Below, piece by piece: positions 4,650 to 8,597 of a stretch of DNA of 8,597 bases (position 1 is the stretch's first letter; every line of letters starts with the position of its first letter). The translations under genes and the position numbers were made by a program. This DNA is from an uncultured Collinsella sp. (GTDB lineage Bacteria; Actinomycetota; Coriobacteriia; Coriobacteriales; Coriobacteriaceae). Location of the stretch: assembly GCA_900555225.1 (NCBI GenBank), contig USKL01000050.1, positions 1 through 8,597 on the forward strand, read 5' to 3'. The notes beneath the pieces were generated by a model. That model searched no databases, was not told the origin of the DNA, and was given only the letters and a program-made list of their open reading frames with translations.

Positions 4650-5573
4650 TTATGACGGTCGTGCCGCGGTGGAAGACGCACGGTCGCCCTGCAGGAGCTG
4701 GCGGTAGGGGAGGAAGCCGATGAACGAGACGACCGCCTGCGAGTGCGCGGCGTTCCGCTTGAGGTAGAGCCTGACCTCGGAGGTCGTCGCGGGCTCAAGC
4801 GGCACCAGGGCTACCTTTCCGCTGGCAAGCGATTCCGCCGGCTTGCGCATGAGGAATGAGACACCGGCGCCGCGTGCGACAAGAGAGATGATGTTCTCGG
4901 CTCGTTTGCCGGTGAACGTAACACGTGGGCCAAACCCAGCTTCGCGACAAAGGGAAAGGACGAGTTCGCTTACGAACGAGCCTTGGGGAAGCATGAGGAA
5001 ATTCTCGTCGATAAGGTCGTCTATCTCGACGGTGTCACGTTCAGCGAGCGGATGGTCAAGTGGAAGGACGGCCACGAGCCGGTCGGTCGTAAAGGGAATC
5101 TTTTTGAACTCCGGCTCGATGGCGCCGCCGTCACGGATGAAGGCCAGGTCAATGTCCTCGTGCAGGAGCATGCGCTTGAGTGTGTCGCCCTCGCCCTCGA
5201 TGAGCTCAACAGAATATGAGGGGTTCGCCTGCTGAAAATCGATGACGGCGTCCGTGATCCCATAAGGGGCCATAATGGGGATAGAACCTACGGTGAGGTG
5301 CTCGAGTGGCTCACCTGCGCCTATTTGAATGGCGGCAAGATAGCGGTGCTGAAGCGTCGCAATTTTTTGCGCATAGGGGAGGAGCGCTTCACCTTGCGCG
5401 GTGAGTGTTACGTGGCGCTGGCTTCGATCGATGAGCTTGCAGCCGAGTTCGTGCTCCATTGCCATGATGTGCTTGGAGAGGGTTGATTGCGACATGAAAA
5501 GCAGTTCCGCTGCATCAAGAAACGTGCGTGACTGCGCTAAGATGGCGAATTCGCCAAAGCGGCTGATATCCAT
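4650..5573 (-). CDS. LysR-type transcriptional regulator
   Basis: This is a 307-residue protein of normal length for the LysR family. The N-terminal winged helix-turn-helix occupies about residues 1-60. It contains the typical FAILAQSRTFLDAAELLFMS and SQSTLSKHIMAMEHELGCKL stretches, then LIDRSQRHVTLTAQGEALL. A linker helix follows, then a periplasmic-binding-protein-like effector domain (about 90-290) with the LTVGSIPIMAPYG strand and DLAFIRDG. Translation starts at the ATG complementary to 5571-5573, with a CCGGAGG site 7 nt upstream. It lies 36 nt behind the deformylase on the same strand, so the two may share a transcript. It converges on the PTS/ceramidase-like cluster, which makes that cluster a plausible target. 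There is no divergent partner gene, the usual clue to a LysR target, so the regulon and the effector remain unknown. Confidence 0.93.
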   Translation of the reverse strand: MDISRFGEFAILAQSRTFLDAAELLFMSQSTLSKHIMAMEHELGCKLIDRSQRHVTLTAQGEALLPYAQKIATLQHRYLAAIQIGAGEPLEHLTVGSIPIMAPYGITDAVIDFQQANPSYSVELIEGEGDTLKRMLLHEDIDLAFIRDGGAIEPEFKKIPFTTDRLVAVLPLDHPLAERDTVEIDDLIDENFLMLPQGSFVSELVLSLCREAGFGPRVTFTGKRAENIISLVARGAGVSFLMRKPAESLASGKVALVPLEPATTSEVRLYLKRNAAHSQAVVSFIGFLPYRQLLQGDRASSTAARPS

Positions 5574-5609: not shown

Positions 5610-6020
5610 CTAAACCACGACGCCGTTGCAGTGGTCGATTTCGTGCTGGATGATTTCGGCGGTGTAGCTCGAGAAGTTTTTGATGCGGTGGACGAAGTTC
5701 TCGTCCAAATACTCAACCTTAATGCGGCGATAGCGGGTACAGGGACGCTCGCCGATCAGCGAGAGGCATCCTTCGCTCGTCTGATAGGCATTGACCTGCT
5801 CAAGAATTTGAGGGTTGTACATCAGGAGTGTCCTGTTGCCGTCCTTTACGCAGATGATGCGCTTGCGCACGCCGATCATGTTGGCGGCGAGGCCCACGCA
5901 CTCGCGCTCATGCTCGTGGAGTGTATCTAGGAGATCCTGCCCGGTCGCGGCATCGTCGGGTCCCGCGTCTTCGGAAGGCAGACGCAAAAAGAACTCGGAT
6001 TTCATGATGGGCTTAATCAT
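5610..6020 (-). CDS. def: Peptide deformylase, short form
   Basis: Peptide deformylase removes the N-formyl group from nascent proteins in the cytosol. The 136-residue product has all three family motifs. Motif I is CVGLAANMIG (residues 41-50), motif II is EGCLS (83-87, metal ligand Cys85), and motif III is QHEIDH (125-130, ligands His126 and His130, catalytic Glu127). Motif I has Asn47 where the classic GxGLAAxQ motif has Gln. I recall similar short deformylases with this feature in clostridia and related gut bacteria, so this is probably a subfamily trait rather than damage. The start at 6020 is supported by a GAGGAG site 6 nt upstream and by the MIKPIMK N-terminus seen in those short forms. 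The frame is open further upstream to 6236, but that part does not look coding. It may be an accessory copy; whether another def exists elsewhere cannot be seen. Confidence 0.92.
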   Translation of the reverse strand: MIKPIMKSEFFLRLPSEDAGPDDAATGQDLLDTLHEHERECVGLAANMIGVRKRIICVKDGNRTLLMYNPQILEQVNAYQTSEGCLSLIGERPCTRYRRIKVEYLDENFVHRIKNFSSYTAEIIQHEIDHCNGVVV

Positions 6021-6026
6021 GGCGGG

Positions 6027-6032
6027 CTCCTC
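6027..6032 (-). promoter_or_regulatory. def: Ribosome binding site that sets the deformylase start
   Basis: On the minus strand GAGGAG stands 6 nt before the ATG at 6020. This supports a 136-residue deformylase rather than the longer open frame that extends to 6236. Confidence 0.65.
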
Positions 6033-6058
6033 ATGTCTTATGCTTTCGTGGACTTTTA

Positions 6059-6064
6059 ATAATA
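6059..6064 (-). promoter_or_regulatory. Possible -10 element for deformylase
   Basis: TATTAT on the minus strand lies 38 nt before the deformylase ATG, a fitting place for a -10 box. No good -35 hexamer stands 16-18 nt upstream (the spot reads GACGCG), so the call is weak. The upstream inverted repeat at 6063-6094 would overlap this promoter. Confidence 0.25.
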
Positions 6065-6094
6065 GCGCGGAAGGAAAGCTGCGCGTCCGCGTTA
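6063..6094. repeat. Inverted repeat in the divergent promoter region
   Basis: TAGCGCGGA at 6063-6071 pairs with TCCGCGTTA at 6086-6094: nine positions with one G/T wobble and a 14-nt spacer. It sits between the divergent deformylase and transporter genes and abuts the possible deformylase -10 box. It could be an operator. On the plus strand CAATCTTTT follows, so a weak terminator-like role is also conceivable, but no plus-strand gene lies just upstream. Confidence 0.4.
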
Positions 6095-6119
6095 CAATCT
6101 TTTGACGTTGGACCATGTT

Positions 6120-6147
6120 GCCAGATTCGTCGTGTACGGCGTCTGGC
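6120..6147 (+). promoter_or_regulatory. Leader hairpin or operator 1 before the MFS gene
   Basis: GCCAGA at 6120-6125 and TCTGGC at 6142-6147 form a perfect 6-bp inverted repeat with a 16-nt spacer. The arms could be an operator in DNA or a hairpin in a transcript that starts upstream. The region 6095-6225 has no clear promoter that I can defend. Confidence 0.35.
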
Positions 6148-6150
6148 GTA

Positions 6151-6179
6151 AGTCTAGGGCTCATTTTTCGCCCTGGACT
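6151..6179 (+). promoter_or_regulatory. Leader hairpin 2 before the MFS gene
   Basis: AGTCTAGGGC at 6151-6160 pairs with GCCCTGGACT at 6170-6179: 10 bp with one U-G wobble and a 9-nt loop containing TTTTT. It begins 4 nt after the first inverted repeat and ends 31 nt before the purine-rich ribosome site of the transporter. Only a short, mixed pyrimidine stretch (GTTCCTCT) follows, so it is not a strong terminator. An attenuating or RNA-stabilising role is possible. Confidence 0.4.
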
Positions 6180-6210
6180 GTTCCTCTGGGGCGATGCGAC
6201 TGTCGTTCCA

Positions 6211-6220
6211 AGAGGAAGGA
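6211..6220 (+). promoter_or_regulatory. Ribosome binding site that sets the MFS start
   Basis: AGAGGAAGGA ends 5 nt before the ATG at 6226. The frame is open back to an ATG at 6115, but no Shine-Dalgarno sequence precedes that codon. The extra 37 residues would also be translated from the hairpin region and are not membrane-protein-like. Confidence 0.6.
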
Positions 6221-6225
6221 AATGC

Positions 6226-7641
6226 ATGGGGAGCAAATCTCAGCAACAAGTTCAAGTAGCGCCATCGGCCACTGCGGCGATTCTCGTCGTAATGTATATT
6301 GCAGCCTTTGTTGCCGCGTTTAACGAGAACATCATTAACGTGGCGTTGCACGACATTATGGCGGCCTTTTCGGTGAGTGCCACCACGGCGCAGTGGCTCG
6401 TTTCGGGCTACATGATCGTGACGTCGATCTTTACGGCCATCATGGCCTTCCTGTCCGGCCGTTTCTCGACGCGCAAGCTGCTGTTTTTCGCATGCGGATG
6501 CATGGTCGCCGGCGAAGTCCTGTGCCTGTTCGCTCCGTCATTTAGCGTTTTGCTGCCAAGCCGTATTTTGCAGGCTGCGGGATCGGGCATCTTGTTCCCG
6601 CTCATGATGAACGTGGTGCTGTCTTGCGCTCCGCGCGAGAAGCTCGGTCTGTATCTGAGTCTGGGTGGTGCCTGCATTACGCTGGGGCCGGCGTTTGGAC
6701 CCGTGATTAGCGGTCTTATGTGCACGTTGTTTGGCTGGAGGGCGGTGTTCGTAGTGCCGCTGGTGGGCGGCATTGTGGTCGCTGCGGCGGGCGTAAAGCT
6801 TGTTCAGAATGTCGGAGAGCGCTCGAATACCACGCTCGATATTCTGTCGGTAGTTTTGCTCGCCGCCGGTATTACGGCTTTTGTGTATTCCGTAGGCGAG
6901 TTCTCGACCAATCTGATTGCCGGCATCGTGACGCTCTTCGCTGCCATTGTGCTGCTCGGCCTGTTTGCGGCCCGCCAGCTCAAGCTCGAGCATCCGGTGC
7001 TTAACGTGCGTCCCATGGCGAGCGTTCGTTTTTGGCCCGCGTGCCTGCTTGTGGTGGTGTCGATGATGACGACGTTCTCGATGAGCGTTTTGTTGCCGCT
7101 CTATTTTGAGGGCGCATACGGCATGACCGCACTTGTTGCGGGCCTGCTCATTTTGCCGGCAATTGCCTGCAACGCCGTGACCTCGATTGTGGGCGGACGC
7201 GTGATGGATGCTCGCGGCGCATGGCCGCTGCTGCCGGTCGGCTTTGCCCTGATTGCCGTGGGGCAGATTGCAATCTCGATGACGGCGGCAAGCATGAATA
7301 TCGGCGTCGTCGTGGCGCTGACCGTTGTGGTGTATGCCGGAGTCGGTTTGGTGCTGAGCCCCTCGCAAACGGCCGGCTTGGAGACGCTGCCTGCCGCTGA
7401 GCATCCCCACGGAACGGCATTGCTTAACACGTGGAACATGATTGCCGCATCGTTTGGCCCATCGCTGTTTATCGGTCTGCTCTCGAGTTCTGCGGCGACT
7501 GCCGGCGCGGCTGGCGCTGCGACCGACGTTGCCCAGGCGATTGGATTTGCAACTGCCGTGCGTGTGGCGGCTGTGATTGCCGTGGTCGGGTTCGCGACGT
7601 CGCTGGTGTACGCCCGTCGCGAGTCGCACATGTCGCATTAA
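6226..7641 (+). CDS. MFS transporter, DHA2 (14-helix) drug efflux type
   Basis: This 471-residue integral membrane protein is very hydrophobic, with roughly 14 predicted helices. That fits the DHA2 family of proton-driven drug antiporters. Landmarks are NENIINVALHDI at the end of helix 1, AQWLVSGYMI in helix 2, the motif A-like loop FLSGRFSTRKLLFF, RILQAAGSGILFP in helix 4, the antiporter motif C-like GPAFGPVISG in helix 5, and GWRAVFVVPLVGG after it. The first-helix motif that normally reads (L)DxTIVNVALP has Asn-Glu-Asn in place of the Asp region (residues 33-35), which could alter proton coupling. The export substrate cannot be inferred. It is transcribed away from the deformylase and probably stands as a single gene behind two leader hairpins. 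No clear terminator follows it: only a small TGTGCACA palindrome lies just after the stop. Confidence 0.92.
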   Translation: MGSKSQQQVQVAPSATAAILVVMYIAAFVAAFNENIINVALHDIMAAFSVSATTAQWLVSGYMIVTSIFTAIMAFLSGRFSTRKLLFFACGCMVAGEVLCLFAPSFSVLLPSRILQAAGSGILFPLMMNVVLSCAPREKLGLYLSLGGACITLGPAFGPVISGLMCTLFGWRAVFVVPLVGGIVVAAAGVKLVQNVGERSNTTLDILSVVLLAAGITAFVYSVGEFSTNLIAGIVTLFAAIVLLGLFAARQLKLEHPVLNVRPMASVRFWPACLLVVVSMMTTFSMSVLLPLYFEGAYGMTALVAGLLILPAIACNAVTSIVGGRVMDARGAWPLLPVGFALIAVGQIAISMTAASMNIGVVVALTVVVYAGVGLVLSPSQTAGLETLPAAEHPHGTALLNTWNMIAASFGPSLFIGLLSSSAATAGAAGAATDVAQAIGFATAVRVAAVIAVVGFATSLVYARRESHMSH

Positions 7642-7716
7642 TGTGTGCACATAGATTCTGCAGCTAGATTGGATGGCAACACCATAAACTAATGGACGTT
7701 TTGCCGAGAGGCATGA

Positions 7717-7782
7717 ATGTTTAAAGCGCAAAGAGTGCGCGACGGGCCCCGCGAATGGGGCGATGATGCCCGAGAGGGCTAA
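7717..7782 (+). CDS. Possible 21-codon leader peptide (uORF)
   Basis: An ATG at 7717 opens 21 codons ending in TAA at 7780-7782, one base before the AAGGAG site of the next gene. GAGAGG at 7706-7711 stands 5 nt upstream as a possible ribosome site. The predicted peptide begins MFKAQRVRDG and is rich in Arg, Asp and Gly. All three leader hairpins lie inside this frame, so its translation would open them. A frame this short can easily arise by chance; no homologue could be checked. Confidence 0.3.
   Translation: MFKAQRVRDGPREWGDDAREG
7726..7779 (+). promoter_or_regulatory. Three tandem small hairpins in an mRNA leader
   Basis: Three perfect stems follow each other. GCGCA/TGCGC (7726-7730, 7736-7740) has a 5-nt loop. 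GCCCC/GGGGC (7746-7750, 7757-7761) has a 6-nt loop. GCCC/GGGC (7768-7771, 7776-7779) encloses GAGA, a GNRA tetraloop. They end 4 nt before the AAGGAG at 7784-7789. No T-tract follows, so they are not terminators. They may form a structured 5' UTR that governs translation or stability of the RGG-protein mRNA. Confidence 0.45.
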
Positions 7783-7793
7783 GAAGGAGTCTC

Positions 7794-8597
7794 ATGTCCG
7801 AGAACGAAGAGATCATGAACGAGACCGAGAACGAGACCATGGCTGCCGAGGTTGAGGCAGTCGAGACCGTGGAGACCGAAGCTGCCGAGGTTGAGGCTGC
7901 TGACGAGGTTTCCGCCGAGGAGGAGGCCGAGGTTGTCGAGGCCGCCGTTGATTACGATGACGAAGAGCTGATGGACAAGATGCAGAAGGCCGCCCGCCTG
8001 CTGCGTAGCCGTCGCTTTGCTATTTCCAAGGAGGAGGAGGCCAAGGCCGAGCGCATGGCGAACATCGAGCGCGCCATCAAGCTTCTTGACCTCAAGCCCA
8101 AGATGGAGCAGAAGGAAATGTCCGACCTGCTGGGCATGCGCCTCCGTGAGCTCGATGGCCTGATGGCCGAGGCCGAGGCTGCCGATCTGGTCGGCCGCAT
8201 CGACGACGCCGAGGGCGATATGCGCAAGATTGTTGTCTTCGCCGCCGAGGATGCCGCTGAGGGCCTGGTCGAGCTTGCCAACAAGAAGGAGAAGCTCCTG
8301 CCCGAGCTTTCTTATGAGGAGGCCACCGAGCTGATGGCCGCTCTCGATAAGGTTATCGCTCCGCTCGTCGCCATGGGCCTGGACGAGGACCGCGGTCCTC
8401 GCGGCGGCCGTGACGACCGTGGCGGCCGTGGCGGCGACCGTGGCGGTCGCGGCGGCTTTGCCGATCGCGGTGGCCGTGGCGGTGACCGTGGCGGTCGCGG
8501 TGGCGATCGCGGCGGCCGTGGCGGCTTTGGTGACCGTGGCGGCGACCGTGGCGGTCGCGGCGGCTTTGGCGGCAACCGTGGTGGCTATGGCGATCGC
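7794..8597 (+). CDS. MarR-like winged-helix protein with RGG tail, 3' truncated
   Basis: The frame starts at ATG 7794 (AAGGAG 4 nt upstream) and stays open to the window end, giving 268 residues without a stop. Three parts are visible. Residues 1-60 are strongly acidic: 25 Glu/Asp and no Lys, Arg or His. Residues about 60-150 hold a basic segment (ARLLRSRRF) and a MarR-like winged helix. Its helix-turn-helix is MEQKEMSDLLGMRLRELDGL (from Met104) and its wing follows ADLVGRIDDAEGDMRKIVVF (130-148). A helical segment reaches about residue 198. From Arg200 the chain becomes a low-complexity tail with 15 RGG triplets, broken by Asp, Phe, Asn and Tyr. RGG tails bind RNA and promote condensates in other proteins. 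The winged helix could bind DNA, or structured RNA. I know no named family for the combination. Nucleic-acid binding is likely; the cellular role is unknown. Confidence 0.85.
   Translation, partial: MSENEEIMNETENETMAAEVEAVETVETEAAEVEAADEVSAEEEAEVVEAAVDYDDEELMDKMQKAARLLRSRRFAISKEEEAKAERMANIERAIKLLDLKPKMEQKEMSDLLGMRLRELDGLMAEAEAADLVGRIDDAEGDMRKIVVFAAEDAAEGLVELANKKEKLLPELSYEEATELMAALDKVIAPLVAMGLDEDRGPRGGRDDRGGRGGDRGGRGGFADRGGRGGDRGGRGGDRGGRGGFGDRGGDRGGRGGFGGNRGGYGDR
8391..8597 (+). repeat. GC-rich tandem repeat encoding RGG triplets
   Basis: Arg-Gly-Gly codon triplets (CGT/CGC followed by GGC/GGT) recur, with GAC/GAT, TTT or TAT between them. A 30-nt segment at 8431-8460 recurs exactly at 8539-8568, 108 nt (36 codons) later. 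The region continues past the window end. On the minus strand it yields a proline-rich frame that is only its complement. Confidence 0.9.

Follow-up and report, generated by a model that had tools for sequence, protein, structure and literature searches.

We observed that a MarR-related, RGG-tailed protein of the Coriobacteriales is encoded behind a leader of small predicted hairpins with GNRA loops. Such hairpins, counted as perfect stems of at least four pairs with a GNRA loop within 150 nt upstream, preceded 38 of 38 genes of the type carried by the window, that is, the whole 8,597-nt stretch of DNA analysed here (the 38 leaders include near relatives, and a similarity ratio of 0.85 sorts them into 33 groups). 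There were 68 non-overlapping hairpins and 0 antisense-equivalent ones. The first-pass annotation of this DNA had not reported the leader. From sequence comparisons, we tentatively propose that the product is a diverged MarR-related RGG protein that is abundant and binds RNA, its own leader hairpins included, limiting its own synthesis.

The protein and its MarR relatives

By its matches, the source of the window is Collinsella aerofaciens-like. Among 33 contig loci matched, 18 carried the gene at 97–100%, 14 came from other Collinsella/Coriobacteriaceae, and one (L035) matched in the tail only. The reading frame at 7794 is truncated by the window end; in near-identical loci, the stop follows after 299–303 amino acids. 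The encoded protein has three parts:

7794..7964, + strand: acidic N-terminal region, residues 1–57, with predicted disorder to about residue 44
7965..8378, + strand: MarR-type core, residues 58–195, with a predicted winged helix at about residues 103–150
8388..8597, + strand: RGG tail, residues 199–268 in the window, extending to residue 303 in relatives

A recount gave 25 Asp/Glu and 0 Lys/Arg in residues 1–60 and 15 RGG triplets ahead of the window end, in agreement with the first-pass annotation, and the MarR-like winged helix that it had placed after the acidic part was borne out by the predicted model and by MarR homology. In the AlphaFold2 model of the window protein, the core was ordered and both ends were of low confidence, so the two ends are predicted to be disordered. 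The window protein thus carries an RGG motif in the sense of repeated RGG within a region of predicted disorder. The acid-core-RGG layout is conserved among the relatives compared: the tail was found in every relative with a readable end except L097, the frame of which stops early. Masked stretches occur in the tails of L032, L094 and L089, that of L024 is masked or cut, and the contigs of L068 and L072 end inside the gene.

The AlphaFold2 model of the core, examined for a winged helix, has the MarR topology. A fold search returned 63 chains at E ≤ 0.001, the best 50 of which were headed by MepR, and the MarR structures among the matches listed include DNA complexes. Because the overall TM score was low (~0.4) and whole-chain superposition was poor, the fit is mainly that of the wing domain. 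Furthermore, hhalign aligned the core with eight canonical relatives (see below) over 140 columns at E 1.2e-13 and a probability of 98.1. The window protein had no match to PF01047 or PF12802 up to E 1, and MarR profiles were missing among the 16 Pfam families matched by 15 core members. The derived-type protein of L067 reached the Pfam MarR profile at E 0.0017 and 18.7 bits, below the cut-off of 24.6, and the NCBIfam HpaR model hit the window protein at E 0.0037 and 17.1 bits, far below its cut-off of 121.2. Among three canonical relatives tested, L078 and L079 passed the Pfam MarR cut-offs and L077 failed. The core is linked to the MarR family through the canonical relatives from the same order and through the profile–profile comparison with eight of them, which make it a homologue of genuine MarR proteins.

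We call the window type "derived" and these relatives "canonical"; both labels are our own and do not rest on a rooted tree. The fusion of an RGG tail to a MarR fold, which had been presented as unfamiliar, proved to be more widely shared: canonical MarR proteins of related Coriobacteriales (L076–L079, L102 and L104) likewise join an acidic N-terminus, a MarR core and an RGG tail. They differ from the window type in that two of the three tested pass the Pfam cut-offs and in that GNRA hairpins were found in 0 of 10 canonical leaders. The wing D-M-R was invariant in 16 aligned sequences. On the other hand, the recognition helix starts with MRLREL in the derived type (MRLRAL or MGLRDL in some further relatives) and with MRQQSL or MRPQSL in canonical relatives. 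With the MarR family at large (Pfam PF01047/PF12802; MepR, SlyA, OhrR), the window protein has in common the predicted winged-helix topology, the wing D-x-R and the flanking helices, but it misses the Pfam profiles, has MRLREL in place of MRQQSL, and adds the acidic N-terminus, the RGG tail and the hairpin leader.

Some match at E 0.001 was found in 85 of 296 genomes of the class; matches at ~1e-26 or better were of the derived type, and the others read were MarR proteins of other types. A phylum-wide search of 296 genomes gave 10 with a match at 1e-6, all within the same order, and the derived type was confined to Coriobacteriales among the genomes sampled. In a tree of 44 rows, from which one further protein was left out, the 27 derived rows formed a clade of their own (96/100), as did the 10 canonical rows (97/96). 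A long stem branch, of 2.67 changes per column, leads to the derived clade; the two clades may or may not be sisters. In one genus of the family (g5), four genomes were without the derived form: two gave no match at all and two gave only weak MarR-type matches. The leader hairpins track the derived protein clade over three families.

The hairpin leader

Upstream of the window gene, the following features were located:

7642..7659, + strand: partly conserved upstream element TGTGTGCACATAGATTCT, which precedes the −10-like box by about 44 nt
7685..7690, + strand: −10-like box TAAACT (TACACT or TAAACT in most relatives; four columns do not vary among 20 aligned leaders)
7702..7713, + strand: leader hairpin 1, TGCC-GAGA-GGCA, with pairing in all 20 leaders aligned
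7726..7740, + strand: leader hairpin 2, GCGCA-AAGAG-TGCGC, from the minimum-energy fold, with a purine loop that is not GNRA
7746..7761, + strand: leader hairpin 3, GCCCC-GCGAAT-GGGGC, from the minimum-energy fold, not GNRA
7768..7779, + strand: leader hairpin 4, GCCC-GAGA-GGGC, adjoining the ribosome-binding site
7781..7789, + strand: ribosome-binding site AAGAAGGAG, assigned by sequence

The TAAACT box is presumably a promoter element. Across the derived genes, small hairpins with purine-rich loops run from just 3′ of the TACACT/TAAACT box, where it is visible, to the ribosome-binding site; one counted hairpin (L026) is located 5′ of the box. Two or more strict GNRA hairpins were present in 22 of the 38 leaders and only one in the other 16. 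The 68 loops comprised GGAA (43), GGGA (10), GAGA (6), GAAA (6), GTGA (2) and GCAA (1), so that GGAA or GGGA accounts for 53 of them.

Several comparisons bear on whether these hairpins are formed in RNA. In 20 aligned leaders, the covariation score was 0.281 compared with 0.106 in shuffled alignments, and 0 of 500 shuffles reached the observed score. Covariation was strongest in hairpin 1, in which 80 of 80 cells were paired and the outer pair was variously GC, AU, CG, UG or UA; alignment helix 2 paired in 67% of cells and helix 3 in 88.5%. The window leader folded at z = −3.35 relative to shuffles, and three other leaders folded singly gave z values of −1.64, −1.02 and −0.88, which are not clearly above shuffle stability. 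Sense and antisense GNRA hairpins numbered 65 and 0 in 32 leaders, compared with 63 and 42 over all G143 genes (G143 is a related genome with the derived gene, of which 2.0 of 2.3 Mb were covered). These sense-only loops point to RNA rather than to a DNA palindrome.

The row of hairpins is uncommon elsewhere. In 139 other upstream regions of the same loci, 137 had no hairpin and two had one, counts that carry errors similar to those of the script's target calls (nine target genes recognised, hairpins before six, and three missed because of wrong starts). In G143, at least one GNRA hairpin preceded 59 of 1448 genes, and two preceded four of 1448. One of four other such arrays lies at G143:C1:334256-334289 (L165), where two GNRA hairpins stand before a gene that is rsmH (mraW)-like by its sequence.

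The sequence GGCCGGAAGGCC was found 33 times, spread over 26 of the 59 genomes of the family, and 17 of these copies were inside the leader of the derived gene; three copies without a fetched locus were on contigs other than that of the gene. It was missing from 33 of the 59, the C. aerofaciens group included. No Rfam family scored above its gathering score in the leaders of the window, L004 and L034; the best forward match to the window leader was malK-III, at 15.3 bits, where the cut-off is 50.

Palindrome, abundance and candidate readings

MarR proteins usually have autoregulatory operators. The palindrome ACAGGTACCTGT was present within 300 nt upstream of seven of 10 canonical genes and in 0 of 37 derived leaders (L086 was left out of this comparison), and a variant differing by one base was seen in an eighth canonical relative, L103. 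A search of 120 genomes from the order found ACAGGTACCTGT in 11. Both copies in G115, the sole copy in G226 and one of two in G097 precede a MarR gene, and in the other eight genomes the copies are inside or near unrelated ORFs. Upstream of the canonical genes, ACAGGTACCTGT looks like an autoregulatory operator. As for the derived genes, the upstream element in the form TGTGTGCACA has a single copy in 2.0 Mb of G143, at the derived gene. Looser forms were seen in 14 of 32 leaders read, and in several relatives the element adjoins the terminator of the preceding gene. It is possibly a regulator site or an alternative operator.

The derived protein is predicted to be abundant. With 12 translation genes as the reference, the codon adaptation of the gene ranked 40 of 1430 in G143, and residues 1–200 taken separately ranked 69. 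Apart from the derived protein, the 2.0 Mb of G143 yielded a single RG-rich protein, a DEAD-box helicase (L201:8378-10663:-; Pfam DEAD, 1.6e-46). Matches to this helicase came from 56 of 58 genomes of the family, and in ten other loci read it had 2–7 RGG triplets. Like the derived protein, it has an acid-rich N-terminus and an RGG-rich tail, but it is built on a helicase core. No GNRA hairpins were found within 150 nt upstream of the G143 helicase gene; consequently, no shared regulon was seen.

Could an ancestral MarR protein that regulated itself through promoter DNA have come to do so through its own mRNA, a direction of change that we infer? The palindrome of the canonical genes and the hairpin row in a clade without a MarR profile match are best explained by such a shift. 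The protein itself would bind the leader hairpins, with the winged helix recognising their shape and the RGG tail adding affinity for RNA. Binding to the leader may block ribosomes or alter message decay, and the protein would thereby limit its own synthesis. It might serve mainly as an abundant organiser associated with RNA, alongside the RG-rich DEAD-box helicase. The first-pass annotation had suggested an RNA-associated protein rather than a classic repressor, and this gained support from the RNA-level hairpin leader that replaces the palindrome, from the high codon adaptation and from the lost MarR profile match, though the derived core, which keeps the MarR wing, may also bind DNA.

The arrangement resembles a known RNA circuit. 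CsrA reads GGA loops, and CsrA/RsmE targets have leaders with GGA hairpins; there too, several small stem-loops carrying GGA in their loops lie close to the ribosome-binding site. The fold of CsrA is unrelated to that of a winged-helix protein. Unlike in CsrA/RsmE systems, CsrA was found in 0 of seven genomes searched, with a control search that was positive in three of 14 known genomes. A fuller account, possible but doubtful as a whole, is that a MarR lineage lost its operator, diverged along the long branch and became an abundant condensate-type RNA binder controlled by itself through GGAA-type tetraloop hairpins, a CsrA-like circuit built independently. A further likeness is offered by Rho of Bacteroides thetaiotaomicron, also a nucleic-acid protein of a gut bacterium, in which a KE-rich, prion-like disordered region interacts with RNA; the part of that report consulted mentions no winged-helix fusion (PMC13269538).

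The kept wing raises the question of whether DNA is the real target. An abundant nucleoid-type protein, with the winged helix on DNA, the RGG tail adding non-specific affinity or condensation and the hairpins regulating the mRNA in some other way, would agree with the MarR homology, the invariant D-M-R, the DNA complexes in the fold search, the codon usage of an abundant protein and the partly conserved upstream DNA element. However, 37 of 37 derived leaders lack the canonical palindrome and have conserved RNA structure there instead, and the sole RG-rich companion in the 2.0 Mb of G143 covered is a DEAD-box helicase; we consider this reading unlikely. An ordinary MarR repressor with an unimportant low-complexity tail is far less probable still. 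It can draw on the MarR fold and homology and on the sub-cut-off HpaR and L067 matches, but it has to contend with the missing Pfam match of the window protein, the long stem branch, the absent ACAGGTACCTGT, the codon usage and the retention of the RGG tail in relatives with readable ends, except L097.

Alternatively, the hairpins may be read by another factor (a helicase, a cold-shock protein, a ribonuclease or temperature), or their role may simply be to protect an mRNA that is strongly expressed; in either case the protein would not bind them. Stems at the 5′ terminus can stabilise messages, GNRA loops are intrinsically stable, and hairpin 1 lies just 3′ of the −10-like box. On the other hand, among the 200 G143 genes with the highest codon adaptation, only the derived gene has two hairpins, at least one hairpin occurs in 11 of these 200, close to the 59 of 1430 overall, and the feature follows the derived clade across the three families. 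This alternative also appears improbable, about as much so as the nucleoid-type protein. If the RNA-binding, self-limiting reading that we prefer is true, a family of DNA-binding repressors can become an RNA-binding protein that limits itself, and both stages still exist within a single bacterial order; the protein would also be a candidate RNA regulator for those Coriobacteriales in which a search for CsrA gave no match.

Surroundings of the gene

In several upstream regions of the helicase genes (L273–L282), a common TATACT box precedes CGGCGG...CTGCTCC; this may be a conserved leader in its own right. Beyond the window, 3′ of the RGG-protein gene, a dispersed repeat begins right after the stop codon (L004:8913-9180) and opens with the inverted repeat TTACGGCGTTT...AAACGCCGTAA; a BLAST search of the 2.0 Mb of G143 gave at least 30 matches to its parts. 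Nine of 18 contigs of the C. aerofaciens group stop 84–455 bases past the gene, likely because of this repeat. Within the window, a peptide deformylase-like ORF (5610–6236, − strand) lies beside a LysR-type regulator (4650–5573, − strand) and an MFS transporter (6115–7641, + strand).
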